A DNA stretch of 53,996 bases from an uncultured Bacteroidia bacterium (lineage in GTDB: Bacteria; Bacteroidota; Bacteroidia; J057; CALLMJ01): contig CALLNY010000007.1 of the NCBI GenBank assembly GCA_938005475.1, positions 1-53,996 of the forward strand, given 5' to 3'. Position 1 is the stretch's first letter. Each line of letters opens with the position of its first letter. The position numbers and the translations under genes were made by a program. The notes beneath the pieces were generated by a model. It did not search any database, was not told the DNA's origin, and saw only the letters and a list, made by a program, of their open reading frames with translations. Shown here piece by piece: positions 2,835-53,996 of the stretch.

Positions 2835-3857
2835 TTAAGTCATAAGGAATTTAAATTTTTCTATATTTTTTAGGGCTATTCCAGTACCTTTGACCACGGC
2901 TTCGAGAGGGTCTTTTGCGACGTGAACGGGGAGTTTCGTTTTTTCGGAAAGCCTTTTATCAAGGCCTCTCAATAATGCTCCACCTCCGGTTAAGTAGATA
3001 CCCCTTTCATAAATATCTGCAGAGAGCTCTGGCGGGGTGAGTTCTAATGCCCGTAAGACGGCTTCTTCTATTTTAATAATAGATTTATTCAAAGCATGGG
3101 CAATTTCTTTGTAGGAGATAGTAATGGTTTTAGGTATACCACTCATCAAATCTTTTCCTTTTACTTCCATCGGTTGAGGTGGATTATCTAACTCTGGAAT
3201 AGCGGCTCCAACATTAATCTTGATTTGCTCTGCGGTTCTTTCGCCAATCGTTAAATTATGCTGACGGCGCATGTAATCTAAAATATCGGTATTTAATACA
3301 TCTCCCGCAAAACGAATGGACTGGTCACATACTATCCCAGCTAAAGCAATTACTGCAATTTCAGTAGTACCTCCACCAATATCTACAATCATATTACCGA
3401 CGGGCTGGTCTACATCTATACCTATGCCAATAGCTGCTGCCATAGGTTCATGAATCAAATAAACTTCCTTAGCTCCGGCATGCTCTGCAGAATCCTTTAC
3501 CGCTCTTTTCTCTACCTCCGTGATACCTGATGGAATACATATTACCATTCTATAACTCGGCGTAATCAAACGACTTTTCCTTGGTAATAGCTTAATAAAT
3601 TCACGTATCATATGTTCTGCAACGGTAAAATCTGCAATCACACCATCTCGTAAAGGGCGTATAGTTTTTATATTTTCGTGCGTACGTTCATGCATAAGTA
3701 AAGCCTGTGTCCCGACTGCAATTACTTTACCCGTTTTTCTATCTAAAGCAACAATAGATGGCTCATTGATAACAATTTCATCGTTATACATGATAAGCGT
3801 ATTCGCTGTTCCTAAATCTATTGCTATTTCGCTTGTGAATATATCAAATAATCCCAT
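2835..3857 (-). CDS. mreB: Rod shape-determining protein MreB (bacterial actin)
   Basis: A 340-residue actin-fold ATPase of normal MreB length. Phosphate-1 motif IAIDLGTANTLIMYNDE lies at the start, phosphate-2 motif MIVDIGGGTTEIAVI in the middle, and the adenosine motif YLTGGGALLRGLD near the end. MreB filaments move along the inner membrane and position the elongation machinery. The gene begins 11 nt after the PurN-PurH fusion gene and is followed by mreC and mreD, so it is probably transcribed from the promoter ahead of the purine gene. The purH-mreB linkage is common in Bacteroidota. Confidence 0.97.
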   Translation of the reverse strand: MGLFDIFTSEIAIDLGTANTLIMYNDEIVINEPSIVALDRKTGKVIAVGTQALLMHERTHENIKTIRPLRDGVIADFTVAEHMIREFIKLLPRKSRLITPSYRMVICIPSGITEVEKRAVKDSAEHAGAKEVYLIHEPMAAAIGIGIDVDQPVGNMIVDIGGGTTEIAVIALAGIVCDQSIRFAGDVLNTDILDYMRRQHNLTIGERTAEQIKINVGAAIPELDNPPQPMEVKGKDLMSGIPKTITISYKEIAHALNKSIIKIEEAVLRALELTPPELSADIYERGIYLTGGGALLRGLDKRLSEKTKLPVHVAKDPLEAVVKGTGIALKNIEKFKFLMT

Positions 3858-3868
3858 TTTTCAGTTTT

Positions 3869-5944
3869 TTAATGTTTAAAGTGTCTTATACCAGTAAAAA
3901 CCATTTTCATTTGCTTTTCATTACAAAAAGCTATGGAGTCTTTATCCCGAATAGAGCCGCCAGGCTGTACTATCGTTTGAATTCCATTTTCATAACAAAG
4001 CTTCACCGCATCATCAAAAGGGAAAAAAGCATCAGAAGCTAAAACCGCCCCTTGCGTTTCAAATCCTTTCTCTTTACATTTTTGTATTGCTTGTTTTAGA
4101 GCATCAATTCGGGAGGTCTGCCCCATTCCGCTTCCTATCATTTGTTTATCCTTAACAATCGCAATAGCATTGGATTTCAAGTGTTTCACACAGGTCTCAG
4201 CAAATTGTAAATCTATTATCTCTTTATCAGAAGGTCTTTTTTCTGTAACAAAGTTATAATCTGTTTGGTAAGCAATACTATCAACATCTTGAATAAGCAA
4301 TCCATTCACACATGTTCTAACCGTTCTATCAGGTAGTGCAAGGTCATGAAGTTTTAAGATAATACGTTTAGGATTTTGCGTTACAAGTTCTTTTGCTTCT
4401 TGGGTATAATCGGTAGCAATCAATACCTCAAAGAATATATCATTTATAGCTTTAGCGGTATCCATGTCTAATGTATCATTAAAAATGATAATACCACCAA
4501 AAGCGGAGGTAGGGTCGCAGGATAATGCGGTTTTCCAAGCTTCAAACACAGTGGAGCGTGTAGCAATACCACAAGGATTAGTATGTTTTATGATAGCACA
4601 AGTAGTTTTAGGGAAATCTGTTATAATTCTTAATGCAGCATCAATATCTAAAAAATTATTATAAGAAAGTTCCTTCCCGCTAATTTTAGTAAATATTTTA
4701 TTATAATCTCCTATGAATTGGGCTTTTTGGTGTGGATTTTCTCCGTAACGTAAGGTAGTCTCTCCAACTAAATAGTTGCTGATGAGTAAATCATATTGAT
4801 AGGTAACCTGAAATGCAGAAACCGCTAATTTTTTTCGTAGTTCATAACTAATAAAAACATCTTTTTGGTAGGATTGTAAAAAAGTATCATAAAACTGTAC
4901 AGAGGGGATAATTACAACATCTTGAAAATTTTTGGCGGCGGCACGTATGAGTGAAACTCCACCAATATCAATAAGTTCAATCATTTTTTCAAAAGATAGT
5001 CCTTCTATTAACCCTTTTTCAAATGGATATAAATCTACAATAACCAGATCAAAAGTATTGATTTGATGGTTTTGAAGGTCTTGGAGATGTAATGCATCGT
5101 CTCTTTTAGCAAGTATTGCTCCAAATACTTTGGGATGTAAAGTTTTGACCCTCCCCCCTAAAATAGAAGGATAATTGGTTACTTGTGCAATATCTGTACA
5201 ATCATAACCTAGCGAACGAATAAAATTTGCTGTCCCCCCAGAAGCATATAAGGATACATTACGAGACTTTAATTCGTGGATAATAGTATCTAAACCTGTT
5301 TTGTCGTACACGGATATAAAAGCTTTTTTTATGTCAATAGATTTCATGTGATTTTCTTTTTGTTGGGATAATATAAAATGTTCAATAATTCTTGGATAAA
5401 AATGATGCTCTAATTTCAAAATTTGTTTTTGAAGCTCCTCAGGGCTATTGGTTGTTACAGGAACTATTTTCTGGAATAAAATTTCGCCTTTATCGTATTC
5501 TTCATTAACTAAATGAACGGTTAAACCAGAATATGTTTCATGATTAGTAATAACAGCTTGATGTACATGTATTCCATACATACCTTTTCCACCATATTGA
5601 GGTAAAAGAGAAGGATGAATGTTTAAAATTTTATTAGGATAAGCCTGAATGATTTCCACAGGAACTAATTTTAAATAACCTGCAAGGATAATATAATCAA
5701 TTTTATCATTTTGCAATAACTTTAATATAGTTTGAGGGATTTTACGAGTGGATTTATCTAAAAAGATAGATTTTAATTCAGGATATAAAGTTTGATATTT
5801 ATGGGCAAGGGATAATATTTTAGCATCATGGTGGTCAGAAATAATATTTACAACGGAAATAAATGGATGAGCAGAGAAGTATTGCAATATTGCTTCTGCA
5901 TTACTTCCAGTGCCTGACCCCCAAATAGATAATCTTATTTTCAA
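3869..5944 (-). CDS. PurN-PurH fusion: GAR formyltransferase joined to AICAR formyltransferase/IMP cyclohydrolase
   Basis: A 691-residue trifunctional purine enzyme. Residues 1 to about 190 are PurN: SIWGSGTGSNAEAI at the start, ILNIHPSLLP with the catalytic Asn and His, and YDKGEILFQ with the catalytic Asp. From residue 200 (MKSIDIKKAFISVYDKTGL) it is PurH: the IMP cyclohydrolase part includes GGRVKTLHPKVFGAILA and the AICAR transformylase part includes IIKHTNPCGIA. Both formyl transfers use 10-formyltetrahydrofolate. The reading frame runs through the join, a short linker rich in Gln, Lys and Glu, without a stop. The Met at base 5347 coincides with the usual PurH start, so internal initiation could also yield free PurH. 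First gene of the block leading into mreBCD. Confidence 0.93.
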   Translation of the reverse strand: MKIRLSIWGSGTGSNAEAILQYFSAHPFISVVNIISDHHDAKILSLAHKYQTLYPELKSIFLDKSTRKIPQTILKLLQNDKIDYIILAGYLKLVPVEIIQAYPNKILNIHPSLLPQYGGKGMYGIHVHQAVITNHETYSGLTVHLVNEEYDKGEILFQKIVPVTTNSPEELQKQILKLEHHFYPRIIEHFILSQQKENHMKSIDIKKAFISVYDKTGLDTIIHELKSRNVSLYASGGTANFIRSLGYDCTDIAQVTNYPSILGGRVKTLHPKVFGAILAKRDDALHLQDLQNHQINTFDLVIVDLYPFEKGLIEGLSFEKMIELIDIGGVSLIRAAAKNFQDVVIIPSVQFYDTFLQSYQKDVFISYELRKKLAVSAFQVTYQYDLLISNYLVGETTLRYGENPHQKAQFIGDYNKIFTKISGKELSYNNFLDIDAALRIITDFPKTTCAIIKHTNPCGIATRSTVFEAWKTALSCDPTSAFGGIIIFNDTLDMDTAKAINDIFFEVLIATDYTQEAKELVTQNPKRIILKLHDLALPDRTVRTCVNGLLIQDVDSIAYQTDYNFVTEKRPSDKEIIDLQFAETCVKHLKSNAIAIVKDKQMIGSGMGQTSRIDALKQAIQKCKEKGFETQGAVLASDAFFPFDDAVKLCYENGIQTIVQPGGSIRDKDSIAFCNEKQMKMVFTGIRHFKH

Positions 5945-5964: not shown

Positions 5965-5972
5965 CAAAATTA
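5965..5972 (-). promoter_or_regulatory. -7 element ahead of the purN-purH/mreBCD operon
   Basis: Read on the minus strand this is TAATTTTG, an exact match to the Bacteroidota -7 box TAnnTTTG, 20 nt upstream of the start codon. No TTG is found at the expected -33 spacing, so only half the promoter is supported. It shares the 150-bp divergent region with fadJ. Confidence 0.55.
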
Positions 5973-26967: not shown

Positions 26968-27429
26968 CTAACTCTTAAATACATTAAACAATGCCACAGA
27001 CAAAAATATCATCGTAAACCCTAAACCAATTACCCATGTAATCGTATTAAATCTTTTTTCTATCGCTTCAAAGCGTGCAGTGTTTTCTTTTTGCATAGCC
27101 TCAAAACGAGTGTTCATTTCTTTTTGTAAAAGCTCAAAGCGTGCATTATTTTCTTTTTGCATAGCCTCAAAGCGAGTATTTATGTTTTCAAAACGAGTAT
27201 TCATTTCTTTTTGTAAAAGCTCAAAACGTAAATCCATTTTTTCCAATATGAGCTTTATGTCCTCTTTGGTAGCTAAATGAGAATTCCTATACTCTTGTTC
27301 TTCTCGCAACTCCTTGATTATATCTATCAAAATTTTTTCTAACCACAATTCGTAGTTTTCTCCAATTTCAGAGTATTTATGCTCTTTGATAATTTGCTTG
27401 ATGGTATTCTTATCTAAAAATATACTCAT
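26968..27429 (-). CDS. Coiled-coil protein with C-terminal membrane anchor, tandem copy 2 (short)
   Basis: 153 residues from ATG 27429. The N-terminal 55 residues are helical (begins MSIFLDKNTIKQIIKEHKY). Then comes a coiled coil built of RFE-containing units of 11 or 7 residues (for example TRFEAMQKENN, TRFENIN), and a membrane segment at the end (ITWVIGLGFTMIFLSVALF). Architecture resembles DUF1640/CCDC90 and Borrelia Bdr proteins; no sequence-level identity to either is claimed. It lies 2 nt after the stop of a near-identical copy and lacks one heptad present there. Function unknown. Confidence 0.75.
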   Translation of the reverse strand: MSIFLDKNTIKQIIKEHKYSEIGENYELWLEKILIDIIKELREEQEYRNSHLATKEDIKLILEKMDLRFELLQKEMNTRFENINTRFEAMQKENNARFELLQKEMNTRFEAMQKENTARFEAIEKRFNTITWVIGLGFTMIFLSVALFNVFKS

Positions 27430-27914
27430 AATCAATTCTTAAATACATTAAACAATGCCACAGACAAAAATATCATCGTAAACCCTAAACCAATTACCCA
27501 TGTAATCGTATTAAATCTTTTTTCTATCGCTTCAAAGCGTGCAGTGTTTTCTTTTTGCATAGCCTCAAAACGAGTATTTATGTTTTCAAAACGAGTATTC
27601 ATTTCTTTTTGTAAAAGCTCAAAGCGTGCATTATTTTCTTTTTGCATAGCCTCAAAGCGAGTATTTATGTTTTCAAAACGAGTGTTCATTTCTTTTTGTA
27701 AAAGCTCAAAACGTAAATCCATTTTTTCCAATATGAGCTTTATGTCCTCTTTGGTAGCTAAATGAGAATTCCTATACTCTTGTTCTTCTCGCAACTCCTT
27801 GATTATGTCTATCAAAATTTTTTCTAACCACAATTCGTAGTTTTCTCCAATTTCAGAGTATTTATGCTCTTTGATAATTTGCTTGATGGTATTCTTATCT
27901 AAAAATATGCTCAT
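26973..27914. repeat. Tandem gene duplication (two copies of about 457 and 478 bp)
   Basis: 26973-27429 and 27437-27914 are near-identical at DNA level. Differences I can see are a 21-bp unit, single bases such as ATATCT/ATGTCT near 27318 and 27807, and the start-proximal base. The repeat covers the coding region almost exactly, suggesting a recent unequal-crossover duplication or ongoing gene conversion. Confidence 0.9.
27432..27914 (-). CDS. Coiled-coil protein with C-terminal membrane anchor, tandem copy 1 (long)
   Basis: 160 residues. It is nearly identical to the following copy in both protein and DNA, but with one extra heptad (NTRFENI) in the coiled coil, and the last residue is Asn instead of Ser. 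RFE units run 11, 7, 11, 11, 7, 11 residues, mixing hendecads and heptads. The tail-anchor suggests inner-membrane insertion with the coiled coil in the cytoplasm, though topology is inferred. It begins 39 nt after the DUF5686 gene on the same strand and may be in its transcript. Confidence 0.78.
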   Translation of the reverse strand: MSIFLDKNTIKQIIKEHKYSEIGENYELWLEKILIDIIKELREEQEYRNSHLATKEDIKLILEKMDLRFELLQKEMNTRFENINTRFEAMQKENNARFELLQKEMNTRFENINTRFEAMQKENTARFEAIEKRFNTITWVIGLGFTMIFLSVALFNVFKN

Positions 27915-47234: not shown

Positions 47235-50200
47235 CTACCGAATAAGGGTTACAGTTCCTTCTCGTTTAATTTTTTTACCATCTTTATTTCTTGTTCCTTC
47301 CAACAGATATACATAAATACCTTCCGAACAAGGCTTACCTGTATTAAATAAATTACCGTTCCAGAATTTATTTTCATCTCCTTCGTTATTGAAAACTAAT
47401 TTACCCCATCTGTCCCATATTTTAAAAGCATATTCCATTCCTGAACTTTCAATTTTAAAAATATCGTTCAAGCCATCATTATTAGGTGTAAATACGTTGG
47501 GAATAAAAAGTCTTGTGCCTTCTAAGACAGTAATTTTGAGTTTAAAGGTATCTGTACAACCGAAATCGTTGGTTACAATTTGAACTACTTCATACTCACC
47601 GGGTTCAGGGAAATTGATAGTACCAGGATTTTGTTGAGTAGAAGTTTGCCCATTACCAAAGTTCCAAGACCATGAAGATGCTCCTGTACTATTATCAGTA
47701 AAAGTTACTTGGGTTTCTGGAGTTTCTACGGTCGTTGCGGAAGCCACAAATCCTGCAATAACGTTCGGTCTAACCTGTATTGCATCAGGAACTATTAAAG
47801 TATCGGAACAACCATCTGCGTTCGTAGCAATTAAAGTAACCGTATAACTTCCCTCTTGTGTATAAGTATGAGCGGGGTTTGCTGTTGTATCCCAAGTACC
47901 ATCACCGAAATCCCATAAATAGGTAGTGCCGGTGCCACCATTTGGATTAGTACTATTAGTAAACTGCACCGATAAAGGATTACAAGTGCCCGAAGTAACG
48001 AAAGAGAAATCAGGGATGGGTCTTCTTTGAATTTCAATGGAATAAGTGGTTGTAGCTTGACAGGTACCATTAAAGTTGATAGAGGTTAAGGTCACGGTAT
48101 AAGTACCAGACTGGGTATAAATATGTGCAGGGCTTCCCAAATTTGAAGTATTACCATCTCCGAAGTCCCATATTCTGTTGGTAGCACCGGTTCCTGCATC
48201 AATAAAATTAACAGGTAAACCTTCACAAGCTACTACATTTGCGGTAGAAATAGCGGGCTGTGGAGTTTCATAAACCTGTATGTAATTGATTTTATCGGTA
48301 GTATCGGCATAAGGTCCATTTTTAACAATTAAACGAACAGAATAAAAACCATGCTGTGCATAAGTGTGAGTAGGGTTTGGTAAGTTAGAAGTATTGCCAT
48401 CACCGAAGTTCCATTCATAATCAGTAGGAGTACCTGTTACCGTTGAAGTAAAATTAACTGTTAGAGGGGCACAACCAGAAGTTATATTTGCGTTAAAATC
48501 ACCAGTAACAGGAGTAGGTACAATCACTGTTGCAGTAGTTTGGCATGAACTTGTACAACCATTGGCATCGGTAATAGTCAAAGTAATTGTATAGGTATTG
48601 GGTCCGCCATAAGTATAATTTAGACCGATGTTGTTAGTATTGGAAGTACCAGTTATTTGTTGTCCATTTCCTAAATCCCAAACATAACTAAAAGGTGCTT
48701 GCCCTGTTGTTATATTAGCTTGAATATCAGAAGGCTGTCCAACTACTACTGTATTAACTGCTGAACATTGTATGATGGGATTAGGATGAATAGTCACTGT
48801 AATAGCATTAGAAGTATCATTTTGAGGTACAGCACACAGGTAACCCGAACTTAACACTAACTGCACTTGATCTCCATTTTGTAAATTATTGATATCCAAA
48901 GTTAAATTATTTTGCCCTGCTAAGGGTTGTCCATTCACTAACCAAGTGTAAACAGGGCTAGTACCTGCATTTTGAGCCACTCCAAAGAAACTAATATTCT
49001 CACCAGGGCAGGATACAGGGTTACTACTAAAAATGTTTACATTAGGTGAAAGTGGTGGTAAAATTTCAAATCTTAAAGTATCTTTCGAGGTAACACCACA
49101 ACAAGGAGTAGAAGAACGTAAACGTACTTCATATGTTCCTAATTGCGTTAGAACGGGCGTAGTGATAGCCGTTACACCGTTAAAAGTAGTATTCAGACCA
49201 GGTCCTTCTAACTCCCATTCATAAAGATCCCCTACAAAATTGGTAGAGAAATTCAGCGTTGTATTAGGGCAGAAAGTGGTTTGCCCTTGATTATTAATAA
49301 TAATTGGTTTGGGACCGTCATTGGAAATATTTACAAAATTAGAATATCTAAATGGAACACCATCAATGGTAAGTGTAATACTTTTTAAACCTTTTGCGGA
49401 GTAACGAGTGATGACGGTATCGCCATTAGCCACAGCTGGTTGAGCGTTGGCACCTAGATTCCAGGTGATGACAGAAGAAGGGTCTTGATCTGGAATAATG
49501 AAAATAATATCGGAGTTAGTACAACCTTTATTTTGGACGATGATTTGGGGTTCAAAGGTAACGTTTACGTTAGTTTTAGTTACAGGCACGCAGGAGACAC
49601 AAACTTGTTCATAAAGATTTTGAGCGACGCCGTTGGCACCGTTCCCTCCTTTACCTCCTTTACCGCCATTTCCTCCTTTTCCCCCATTTCCGCCGGCTCC
49701 TCCTTCACATCCTGCGGCTGTGTTATTACCTCCCCCATCGAAGCCTCCAAGCCCCCCATTACCGCCTATTCCACCTACGGCACCATCAGAACCTATACCC
49801 CCATTGCCAGGGCTTCCTTTCTCTAATTGGCAATCACGAATAAAACCATTATTTCCGTTTGCCCAGATAAAAATCGCGAAAGAACCGCCTCCACCAGTAC
49901 CACCTTTACCACCTTCACCACCTTCACCGCCTTCACCACCACCACCGCCACCCCCACCAGGTGAATTATAGTCTCCACCAATAGAAAAACAAGCAATGTG
50001 TGTTGGGATACCTCCAATGGAGCCGCCACCACCACCGCCACCACCACCGCCACCATGACGTCCATTCTGTCCATCAGTAGCGTTGCCAGGAATAAAAAAC
50101 TGATTAAAATTAGGAATACCATTCTGCCCATCTACTCCATCAAAACCGTTCATACCATCTTCTCCGTTCAAACCTGCGTAAGGAGTGCCGCTTGATGGAC

Positions 50201-51104
50201 AGCCCCCAAGAGTATTGATAAAACCTAACGCATCTGTTGCATTAGAGCAAATATTTAAGCCAACCCCTGCAATACCTCCTGGACCGCCGAGTACTCCCAT
50301 GGTACCATTACCTGCCTGCCCTGGTTGCCCATCCGGTGCCGCCGCCGGTGGTTGGCAAAAATCCAAAGAAATAGCACAATGATTCATGCCCGTACCACGA
50401 TTGGCTCCTTGCCCCCCGTTGCCCCCCGCTACCAAACCTAATGACCATGAGTTCCCCCCCGTGCCCGCTAAATTGGTATAACTTGGATCAAGCAAAGAAC
50501 CTGGGTCACATTGTCTACATCCTTTTCCTCCTTCTGTACCATTAGCACCATTACGCCCTGGCGTTGTTGGTCCCCCATCTTGTCCCTTGCTACCATTACC
50601 TACTCTAACGTTACATCGATTTACTAAATAGTCTGAACAAGCATTCAAATGAAGACCATAAGTAGTTACGCTGTATCCCGACACATTAGTATCCGCAGAC
50701 GCAGTTTCTATATCTAACTCATTTAAAATAAATGCTTTATGGTTATTCCCATAAATGGCTACTAACCGTGGAGGATTGGATTCTGTATTCAAACTATCCC
50801 TATGAATTACCGTTCTCCAAAAATTGGATTTCTCCCATGTTGTTGGGTCATAACCTCCTTCAATTTGGATAGAATCCCTTAAAATTATTGGATTAGAAAA
50901 GCCGTAATATCCATAAGCCATTCTAATAACCCAATTACCTGTGTTAGCATTTTGAATAGCGTTTAATAAGTTAGTAGGATTGGAACGGGTTCCTGTACCA
51001 TTACCATTCGGAGTAACATACCATATCCCACACTCCTGAGCCTGTAAATGGGTTATCATCCCTAAATAACAAGCTGTAAATACTATATGTCTTAAAAATT
51101 TCAT
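47235..51104 (-). CDS. Giant secreted polyglycine/PKD protein with type B T9SS sorting domain
   Basis: A 1289-residue protein. The signal peptide ends THLQAQ. The N-domain (about 24-165) looks like the start of a right-handed beta-helix (GIWYVTPNGNGTGTRSNP, RDSIQIEGGYDPTTWE). A Gly-rich segment of about 325 residues (170-495) follows, built of GGxGGxGGx and GxxGxx repeats with a few CxxC-type Cys. Ig-like domains then lead to about five PKD domains (WNFGDGNTSNLPNPTHTY, WDFGDGNTSNL, WDFGDGTWDTT). The end is a CHU_C/type B sorting domain (IPNVFTPNNDGLNDIFKI, WDRWGKLVF). Probably a surface fibre or adhesin. It lies 15 nt behind a paralog on the same strand. Confidence 0.88.
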   Translation of the reverse strand: MKFLRHIVFTACYLGMITHLQAQECGIWYVTPNGNGTGTRSNPTNLLNAIQNANTGNWVIRMAYGYYGFSNPIILRDSIQIEGGYDPTTWEKSNFWRTVIHRDSLNTESNPPRLVAIYGNNHKAFILNELDIETASADTNVSGYSVTTYGLHLNACSDYLVNRCNVRVGNGSKGQDGGPTTPGRNGANGTEGGKGCRQCDPGSLLDPSYTNLAGTGGNSWSLGLVAGGNGGQGANRGTGMNHCAISLDFCQPPAAAPDGQPGQAGNGTMGVLGGPGGIAGVGLNICSNATDALGFINTLGGCPSSGTPYAGLNGEDGMNGFDGVDGQNGIPNFNQFFIPGNATDGQNGRHGGGGGGGGGGGSIGGIPTHIACFSIGGDYNSPGGGGGGGGEGGEGGEGGKGGTGGGGSFAIFIWANGNNGFIRDCQLEKGSPGNGGIGSDGAVGGIGGNGGLGGFDGGGNNTAAGCEGGAGGNGGKGGNGGKGGKGGNGANGVAQNLYEQVCVSCVPVTKTNVNVTFEPQIIVQNKGCTNSDIIFIIPDQDPSSVITWNLGANAQPAVANGDTVITRYSAKGLKSITLTIDGVPFRYSNFVNISNDGPKPIIINNQGQTTFCPNTTLNFSTNFVGDLYEWELEGPGLNTTFNGVTAITTPVLTQLGTYEVRLRSSTPCCGVTSKDTLRFEILPPLSPNVNIFSSNPVSCPGENISFFGVAQNAGTSPVYTWLVNGQPLAGQNNLTLDINNLQNGDQVQLVLSSGYLCAVPQNDTSNAITVTIHPNPIIQCSAVNTVVVGQPSDIQANITTGQAPFSYVWDLGNGQQITGTSNTNNIGLNYTYGGPNTYTITLTITDANGCTSSCQTTATVIVPTPVTGDFNANITSGCAPLTVNFTSTVTGTPTDYEWNFGDGNTSNLPNPTHTYAQHGFYSVRLIVKNGPYADTTDKINYIQVYETPQPAISTANVVACEGLPVNFIDAGTGATNRIWDFGDGNTSNLGSPAHIYTQSGTYTVTLTSINFNGTCQATTTYSIEIQRRPIPDFSFVTSGTCNPLSVQFTNSTNPNGGTGTTYLWDFGDGTWDTTANPAHTYTQEGSYTVTLIATNADGCSDTLIVPDAIQVRPNVIAGFVASATTVETPETQVTFTDNSTGASSWSWNFGNGQTSTQQNPGTINFPEPGEYEVVQIVTNDFGCTDTFKLKITVLEGTRLFIPNVFTPNNDGLNDIFKIESSGMEYAFKIWDRWGKLVFNNEGDENKFWNGNLFNTGKPCSEGIYVYLLEGTRNKDGKKIKREGTVTLIR
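49618..50605 (-). repeat. Polyglycine-coding repeat region, first paralog
   Basis: About 990 bp coding a low-complexity Gly tract with GGN codons in near-tandem (GGTGGCGGTGGTGG-like on the minus strand). The plus strand is strikingly C-rich against the AT-rich surroundings. Runs of 8-10 Gly in a row alternate with GGEGGEGGKGG and GGNGGKGGNGG blocks; one short non-Gly strand (FAIFIWANGNNGFIRDC) interrupts it. Confidence 0.85.
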
Positions 51105-51119
51105 TATACTACGATTTAT

Positions 51120-53996
51120 CTAATTACGAACTAATTTTTGATAGAATACTTGTTGATTAAAGCTTATTTTCACAAAATACATGCCTGCTGATAAATCAGG
51201 ATTTACCTGTAAATGGATATGATGGTTTCCAGATTTAATTGTCCCCTGATACAAGTCTTGAACTTTTTTGGAAGTTACATCCAGCAACTCTACGTTCAGA
51301 ACGCCTGTTTGATTTGCAAAAAATCTGACGGATAGGTTTTCATGGAAGGGATTTGGATAGATAGCTATATCCTGTAAATCAAAAGATGGTTCTTTGTTAA
51401 CAGCGATACGAACAATTTGCGTTTTAGAGATTGAGTCAGAACAGCCATACTCATTGGTTACGAGTAATTTGACATCGTATTCACCGTTTTGAGCGTAGAT
51501 ATGAGTGGGGTCTGGGAGCGTTGAGGTGTTACCATCACCGAAGTCCCAAAAGAAATTATAAGCACCCTGCGAAATAGAAGCAAAATAAACCGGTTGATTA
51601 GCTTCGTAGATAACTTCGGGAATTACTTTGAAATCCGCAGTAGGTTTAGGATAGACAGCTATGTTCATCGTAGAAGTACTTGTATTACTTTGCCCCATAG
51701 CTTGTAAAGTAACCGTATACAAACCTCTAGCCTGGTAAATGTGAGTAGGATTTACGTCATAACTAACTGGAGAACCATCACCAAAATCCCAAATGTAACT
51801 AATTGCATTGATACTATTATTCACAAATTGTACTTGCTGGGCTACACAACCTGCGGTATCTAATGCAGAAAATTGAGAAATGGTAGTATAAAACACATCA
51901 ACCTGAGTAGCACAAGGTAAGGAAACACAACCATTCGCATCTACTGCGTAAACCAACACTTCATAACTCCCTGACTGATTATAAACCGTGGTCGTTGAAG
52001 AATTATTGCCATTAGTATTGCCTATGGCGGAAGTATTATTACCAAAGCTAAAGAAGAAGGTATAAGGGGGATTACCGCCGTTAGCAGTAGCATTAAAATC
52101 AACTAATTCTCCAAGACCTACTTGATTTTGTGAAACATTACAGCTTACAACAGGAGCAGGATTAACGGTAAATGCTAATGAATTAGAATAAATACTATCT
52201 CCCAGCGAACATATATTAGAACTCAAAAGCACGCATTCTACCAAGTCATTATTTTGTAGATTACTTACAATTAGAATAGTTGAATTATTTCCAGTAGGGA
52301 TGCCGTTAATACGCCATATAAATTGGGGATTCGTTCCAGCATTAGAAGCATTAGCAACTAAAGTTACTGTTTCATTCTCACAAACATTCGTTCCTTGTTC
52401 GCTTGAAATAGTAATGGAAGGGACAGGATTAGGTCTTACGTGAATAGGTTTGACGACCCAATCAGACCATGAGCAACAAAAGGTTTCTATTTTCATTCGG
52501 ATGAGGTAATCTCCAGGTGTATTAAAAGTAAAACCATTAAAAGATTGGAAGAGATTAGTATCAGGAGCATACAAACCGACTACCTCCCAAATATAGCGAG
52601 TACCAAGGATAGAAGAGAGCAGTGTAGGAGTTTCACCTTGACAAATGGTATCGGGAGCAATTAAGGTAGGAGTTAATCCTGCAGAGGAATTACGTATGTC
52701 TATAAAATCGGAATAGGTATAAGATACTCCATTAACTACCACGGTAATAGTTTTGGGACCGAGCGTAGGATAGGTAACGACACAAGTATCGCCGCTTGCA
52801 ACTGCAGGAATACCACTTCCTGTGTACCAAACGATATTTCCAGAGGCTTGAACATTCATTTTAACTTCTCTATCCGTGCAACCGGAGAACAGAACTTCGA
52901 GTACGGGTTCATCATCTTTTCTTATATTAGTGATAATCAATGGATTACCATTTTGATAAATATCTAATGCGATACCGGGTGCACCATCTCCCCCTCTACC
53001 TCCTTTACCTCCATTACCCCCTTTACCCCCATTGCCGCCCCATCCCATGTCACAAGCGACGGGTTGTCCTTGTTGCCCGCGAGCGCCACCAAAACCTCCA
53101 TTCCCACCAAGCCCCCCAAAACCACCGAGCCCCCCTACTCCACCAAATCCGGGTTGCCCCGCTACTATTTTGGAGTCTCGAATACGTGCATTGGGTCCAT
53201 TGTTATGAACATAAAGCCCGAAGGAGCCTCCTCCTCCGATACCACCTTTCCCCCCTTTTCCTCCTTCACCGCCTTCACCACCTCCTCCGCCGCCAGCGCC
53301 AGAGTCTCCATTATTAGAACCAAATCCACAAGCCATACCTCCTTGCCCGCCGCCACCGCCGCCACCGCCTCCACCAGAACCGTGCTGTCCATCTTGCCCA
53401 TCCGTACCAGTACCTGGCACAAAAAAGCCACCTGAATGTGTGGGAACTCCATTTGTACCATCTGCCCCGTCCGCACCATTTCCACCATTTTGCCCATCCC
53501 CCCCATCATATCCTTCTGTATGGTCATTAGAACAACCTATCGCTATAAGTGGTTCAATATTAGGTAAACCAGCTATTCCACCAGCACCTCCAGAGGTGCC
53601 CATACCAGGAAAGCCTGGGTTACCAGGGAAAGTAGAAACCGTTCCAATAAAACCTGAACAAGTACCTCTCGGAGCGCCCTGCCCTCCATTCCCCCCAGCC
53701 ACTAATCCCCCCGACCAAGAACTACCTCCCGCACCGCCTGCGTTATTTCCATTACAGTCTACACAGCCAGGTTGACCTATCCCACCTGGAGCCCCATTCT
53801 GACCACTCGCTCCATCTAACCCATTTCCACCATTCGATGCATTCCCCGACTTCACATAACATCTAACAATATCATAATTAGAACATCCATTCAAATAAAT
53901 TCCATACACAGAGGTTCCATCATTTAAATTCGTTGCATCTTGTATCAAGATAGTCACGTCTTGAATTCGAAAATTGGAAATGCCACTCCCCATTAA
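51120..53996 (-). CDS. Secreted polyglycine/PKD protein with type A T9SS sorting domain, 5' end cut by window
   Basis: The frame is open through the last base, so the N-terminus is missing; by comparison with the paralog about 130 residues, including the signal peptide, lie outside. A Met near the edge is not the likely start. About 957 residues are seen: the end of a beta-helix-like domain (YGIYLNGCSNYDIVRCYVKS), a Gly-rich tract of about 300 residues, Ig-like domains, and two or three PKD domains (WDFGDGSPVSYDVNPTHIY, WDFGDGNTSTLPDPTHIY). A type A sorting domain closes it (IAIYPNPFHENLSVRFF, SAGMYFVKISFNQ). It is colinear with the next gene until the C-terminus, where the sorting domain differs. 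Confidence 0.87.
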   Translation of the reverse strand, partial: LMGSGISNFRIQDVTILIQDATNLNDGTSVYGIYLNGCSNYDIVRCYVKSGNASNGGNGLDGASGQNGAPGGIGQPGCVDCNGNNAGGAGGSSWSGGLVAGGNGGQGAPRGTCSGFIGTVSTFPGNPGFPGMGTSGGAGGIAGLPNIEPLIAIGCSNDHTEGYDGGDGQNGGNGADGADGTNGVPTHSGGFFVPGTGTDGQDGQHGSGGGGGGGGGGQGGMACGFGSNNGDSGAGGGGGGEGGEGGKGGKGGIGGGGSFGLYVHNNGPNARIRDSKIVAGQPGFGGVGGLGGFGGLGGNGGFGGARGQQGQPVACDMGWGGNGGKGGNGGKGGRGGDGAPGIALDIYQNGNPLIITNIRKDDEPVLEVLFSGCTDREVKMNVQASGNIVWYTGSGIPAVASGDTCVVTYPTLGPKTITVVVNGVSYTYSDFIDIRNSSAGLTPTLIAPDTICQGETPTLLSSILGTRYIWEVVGLYAPDTNLFQSFNGFTFNTPGDYLIRMKIETFCCSWSDWVVKPIHVRPNPVPSITISSEQGTNVCENETVTLVANASNAGTNPQFIWRINGIPTGNNSTILIVSNLQNNDLVECVLLSSNICSLGDSIYSNSLAFTVNPAPVVSCNVSQNQVGLGELVDFNATANGGNPPYTFFFSFGNNTSAIGNTNGNNSSTTTVYNQSGSYEVLVYAVDANGCVSLPCATQVDVFYTTISQFSALDTAGCVAQQVQFVNNSINAISYIWDFGDGSPVSYDVNPTHIYQARGLYTVTLQAMGQSNTSTSTMNIAVYPKPTADFKVIPEVIYEANQPVYFASISQGAYNFFWDFGDGNTSTLPDPTHIYAQNGEYDVKLLVTNEYGCSDSISKTQIVRIAVNKEPSFDLQDIAIYPNPFHENLSVRFFANQTGVLNVELLDVTSKKVQDLYQGTIKSGNHHIHLQVNPDLSAGMYFVKISFNQQVFYQKLVRN
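52960..53860 (-). repeat. Polyglycine-coding repeat region, second paralog
   Basis: About 900 bp equivalent to the Gly-rich tract of the neighbouring paralog, with the same block order: GLVAGGNGGQG, long Gly runs, EGGEGGKGGKGG, a short non-Gly strand (FGLYVHNNGPNARIRDSK) and a final GGNGGKGGNGGKGG block. The coding strand is rich in GG pairs. Confidence 0.85.

Follow-up and report, generated by a model that had tools for sequence, protein, structure and literature searches.

The locus raises the question of whether an uncultured Bacteroidia bacterium makes two enzymes of purine synthesis, PurN and PurH, as a single protein, and, if so, how that protein arose and whether anything depends on its two parts being joined. 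We analyzed a window of 53,996 nucleotides (the whole stretch of DNA under study, contig CALLNY010000007.1), in which the relevant features are the following:

3869..5944, minus strand: purNH fusion gene, 691 aa, TTG start
5348..5944, minus strand: PurN part, predicted GAR formyltransferase, residues 1-199; Formyl_trans_N at 7-187; closest PDB structures are GAR transformylases; N108, H110, and D151 retained
5348..5386, minus strand: putative tether, residues 187-199, fast-evolving and without a stop
5345..5347, minus strand: ATG (Met200), ancestral PurH start codon and possible weak internal start
3872..5347, minus strand: PurH part, predicted IMP cyclohydrolase (MGS fold) and AICAR formyltransferase, residues 200-691
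5965..5972, minus strand: TAATTTTG, promoter-like -7 box of Bacteroidota type, 28 bases ahead of the TTG start
2835..3857, minus strand: mreB, next gene downstream of purNH after a gap of 11 bases; order the same in relatives

Domain content of the fused frame

The single open frame of purNH crosses the join without any stop codon. It begins at a TTG, no in-frame ATG being found ahead of the PurN domain, and its three Pfam matches, Formyl_trans_N (residues 7-187), MGS (220-330), and AICARFT_IMPCHas (336-622), are each above cut-off. The original prediction of an uninterrupted frame, with a complete PurN followed by a complete PurH, is thereby borne out, although the length it gave for this long fused protein, 690 residues, has to be corrected to 691 with the TTG start. 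Since all three domains lie in one frame, both 10-formyl-THF-dependent steps and IMP closure would, as had been proposed, be carried by one chain.

Assignment of the PurH part is straightforward. The PurH model NF002049 scores 599 bits against a cut-off of 402, covering positions 4-510 of 510; both domains are complete, including the MGS (IMP cyclohydrolase) domain, and the motifs GRVKTLHP, IDIGG, RAAAKN, RYGENPHQ, and IKHTNPCG are all present. The solved structures nearest to residues 200-691 are PurH enzymes, and those nearest to residues 1-199 are GAR transformylases. On the PurN part, PF00551 (Formyl_trans_N) reaches 128 bits (cut-off 26.1), and the catalytic residues N108 and H110 (in NIHPSLLP) and D151 (in YDKG) are found here and do not vary among the four fused proteins described below. 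We take the roles of these residues and of the PurH motifs to be those established for their families. The PurN equivalog model TIGR00639 gives 123.1 bits, below its cut-off of 150.1 but far above the Fmt (66) and PurU (63) models; the shortfall is probably due to a GGKGMYG insertion, a divergent Bacteroidota form of PurN. The name PurN would thus follow from the best profile match, the catalytic residues, and the context. The GGKGMYG-type insertion itself lies after NIHPSLLP (window 5573-5593), and we observed it here and in Bacteroidota relatives, and not in this form in the PurN structures compared.

An AlphaFold model computed from a four-sequence alignment (pLDDT 72, pTM 0.44) shows both folds formed, with a long helix closing PurN at residue 193 and the join at 196-200 modeled with pLDDT below 50. 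Foldseek matched PurH and PurN structures to the respective parts of the model. The relative placement of the two parts in this model is uncertain, and at a pTM of 0.44 it is not reliable.

Whether the genome has another purN or purT, a point raised with the original prediction, was addressed by profile search. The genome contains two Formyl_trans_N genes, purNH and Fmt, and a single AICARFT gene, purNH; the best PurT match falls far below cut-off. A second purN that would free the fused copy is therefore ruled out, the other Formyl_trans_N gene being Fmt. With one PurN, one PurH, and no PurT found, the fused protein is the sole visible route for both formyl transfers. Separately, the best PurM match in the genome (L099, G000:C38:25612-26568) scores 97 bits, a long way short of the 236 that TIGR00878 requires; if this gene is a PurM in the first place, it is a divergent one.

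Two further sets of genes in the window deserve mention. On the minus strand, a tandem pair of genes (26968-27435 and 27432-27914) with a 4-base overlap codes for proteins of 155 and 160 aa that are almost identical and differ mainly by repeat number. We found no Pfam match for them; their repeats are coiled-coil-like (NTRFENINTRFEAMQKEN), and each protein probably has one membrane stretch at its C terminus. Two adjacent large proteins at 47235-51104 and 51120-53993 (minus strand) carry several PKD domains, and their type IX secretion sorting domains at the end are of two kinds, CHU_C and Por_Secre_tail.

Conservation of the frame and of the methionine at the join

The second species of the genus (G001, contig CALLMJ010000042.1, uncultured Bacteroidia bacterium), the sole other genome of the genus compared, carries the same 691-codon frame, gap-free and 76% identical, and it gave the only fused match in a peptide-pattern scan of genome contigs. 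The two fused genes differ at 515 bases, distributed over codon positions 1, 2, and 3 as 139, 62, and 314, which indicates that both are under protein-level constraint; their synonymous divergence is about 1.35. These data bear directly on the explanation that a sequencing or assembly error removed the stop between two separate genes. In several relatives purN and purH do lie in the same frame, where one wrong base could be enough to join them, but the other species, assembled independently, shows the same frame and length together with many synonymous changes. The frame error at the join that the original prediction had singled out for checking is excluded on these grounds, and we give an artifact practically no credence.

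The start of the gene is conserved as well. Bacteroidota promoters have the -7 consensus TAnnTTTG, and the sister species has the same TTG with the same TAATTTTG at 28 bases upstream. Within the frame, identity between the two species drops to 38% over the 13 residues ahead of the join, where dN is 0.76 and dS is 0.54, compared with dN of 0.24 in PurN and 0.10-0.14 in PurH. Such free divergence fits what would be expected of a simple tether.

The codon of Met200 aligns with the position at which free PurH begins in relatives (MATKKIQSALVS, MTAKKAIRSALIS), in agreement with the claim that the methionine at base 5347 equals the normal PurH start. It could thus be supposed that most PurH is made as a free protein by internal initiation at this ATG, the fusion arising incidentally where the reading of a weak purN, begun at TTG, continues into purH. 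The ATG, the ancestral PurH start, is indeed retained in both species, and the fusion gene does start with TTG. We scored start contexts with a model built from 154 genes of the source genome. The ATG at 5347 falls at the 11th percentile of the genome's real starts (83rd of internal ATGs), which speaks against this explanation, whereas the equivalent ATG of the sister species, at the 47th percentile, is average for a real start; the purN TTG stands at the 19th percentile in both species. Moreover, no promoter-like TAnnTTTG box occurs shortly ahead of the ATG at 5347, and the independently fused protein of genome G414 (see below) lacks a methionine at the join. Predominant production of free PurH therefore seems unlikely to us. 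As for the earlier suggestion that the cell might make both forms, the full fused frame is real, but the case for the free form is weak, given the 11th-percentile context and the absence of the methionine in G414; judging by start context, some internal initiation at Met200 would be possible but poorly supported.

Origin and spread of the fusion

None of the remaining 20 genomes of the order has the fusion. In 13 of the 20, purN immediately precedes purH, the two being separated by a stop and a gap of 20 to about 120 bases and often sharing a frame by chance; in the rest, the genes are not neighbors, are absent, or sit at the ends of contigs. Full-length matches with internal stops in relatives proved, once translated, to be separate same-frame genes and no fusion. 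Within the stretch examined, mreB comes next after purH in 7 of 10 inspected purN-purH genomes. The view that PurH alone is the usual purH-mreB neighbor does not hold in this order, where purN and purH are commonly neighbors and mreB mostly follows them. This suggests that the ancestral arrangement was likely purN-purH-mreB, as separate genes, and that the fusion was a one-step loss of the purN stop.

We therefore propose the following scenario. The purN stop would have been lost within the purN-purH-mreB run in the ancestor of the genus, a few intergenic bases turning into a short tether. The PurN part would then carry out GAR formylation, and the PurH part AICAR formylation and IMP cyclization, each with its own complete active site. 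That purNH encodes a predicted trifunctional enzyme, derived from the fusion of two adjacent genes, is in our judgment very probable from its sequence; that all three activities are working we infer.

Genome sets of 22 (order), 395 (class), and 395 (phylum) members (G000-G735), about 730 Bacteroidota genomes, were searched in a way able to show PurN-first fusions only. Among the matches listed, only four are fused: the two of the source genus and two (G414 and G456) of one genus in another class, whose fused gene also lies directly before mreB. In trees of PurH and of PurN, the two fused species of the source genus group together, apart from the other fused genus, with strong support. The fusion thus arose at least twice in the phylum. 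Long open frames flagged in G388 and G320 were examined and are no fusion. In plasmid records from other phyla, near-full-length matches come in at least two pieces, and those with a gene table are separate purN and purH genes side by side. The taxonomic spread of the domain pair, which the original prediction left to be mapped, accordingly amounts to two fused genera over the Bacteroidota genomes and plasmid records covered.

A related protein is known outside bacteria. A survey of archaeal purine synthesis (PMC3261824, Biol Direct 2011) reports that in all nine Halobacteria studied PurN is joined to PurH1, which corresponds to the AICAR formyltransferase half of PurH; IMP cyclohydrolase is lacking there, and a purO-like gene is expected to take its place. 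Common to both is a PurN-type GAR formyltransferase joined to an AICAR formyltransferase, both users of 10-formyl-THF; here, in contrast, the fusion is in a bacterium and comprises the whole bifunctional PurH, including the MGS domain that the halobacterial form lacks. In the open-access literature we found only this paper and none on a bacterial fusion of PurN with whole PurH. The joining of two folate-dependent formyl transfers is thus already described, which in part realizes the objection named with the original prediction, that the domain pair might already be widely catalogued, and the bacterial whole-PurH form is a variant of it. Separate adjacent purN and purH of Bacteroidota, Firmicutes, and others have the same order and domains, but with a stop codon between the genes. 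The vertebrate trifunctional GART (GARS-AIRS-GART domains) likewise combines a PurN domain with further purine-synthesis activities on one chain, but the partners are different (steps 2, 3, and 5) and there is no PurH domain.

Possible consequences of the join

The substrates of PurN and PurH are not consecutive, so that any benefit of joining them would lie in equal amounts and nearness of two enzymes using the same cofactor. It is quite plausible, if a little short of an even chance, that the fusion is neutral: The stop would have been lost by chance, with nothing depending on the join and the fused protein still made and working. The tether sequence is unconstrained (dN exceeds dS over its 13 codons), and fusions are rare (two genera in the ~730 genomes), separate genes being the norm. 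Nevertheless, the join is open in both lineages, and in neutral simulations, with insertions ignored, both descendants remained stop-free in about 14% of runs, which makes the open join suggestive of selection, not proof of it. The same fusion also arose at least once elsewhere in the phylum, and Halobacteria have a shorter version. More speculative, and in our estimate improbable, is that the two formyl transfers share a locally held 10-formyl-THF pool, and that the fusion has been repeatedly selected, in two bacterial genera and in Halobacteria, for cofactor sharing and not for substrate channeling.

Read from the genomes compared, purNH is a true, conserved, genus-level fusion, apparently a small evolutionary change with ordinary chemistry. 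It provides a clean case of gene fusion via stop loss: relatives have the neighboring genes unfused, and the same change took place independently elsewhere in the phylum. If joined function were shown, nature would have supplied a way to test whether tethering helps enzymes whose cofactor is shared but whose substrates are not consecutive.
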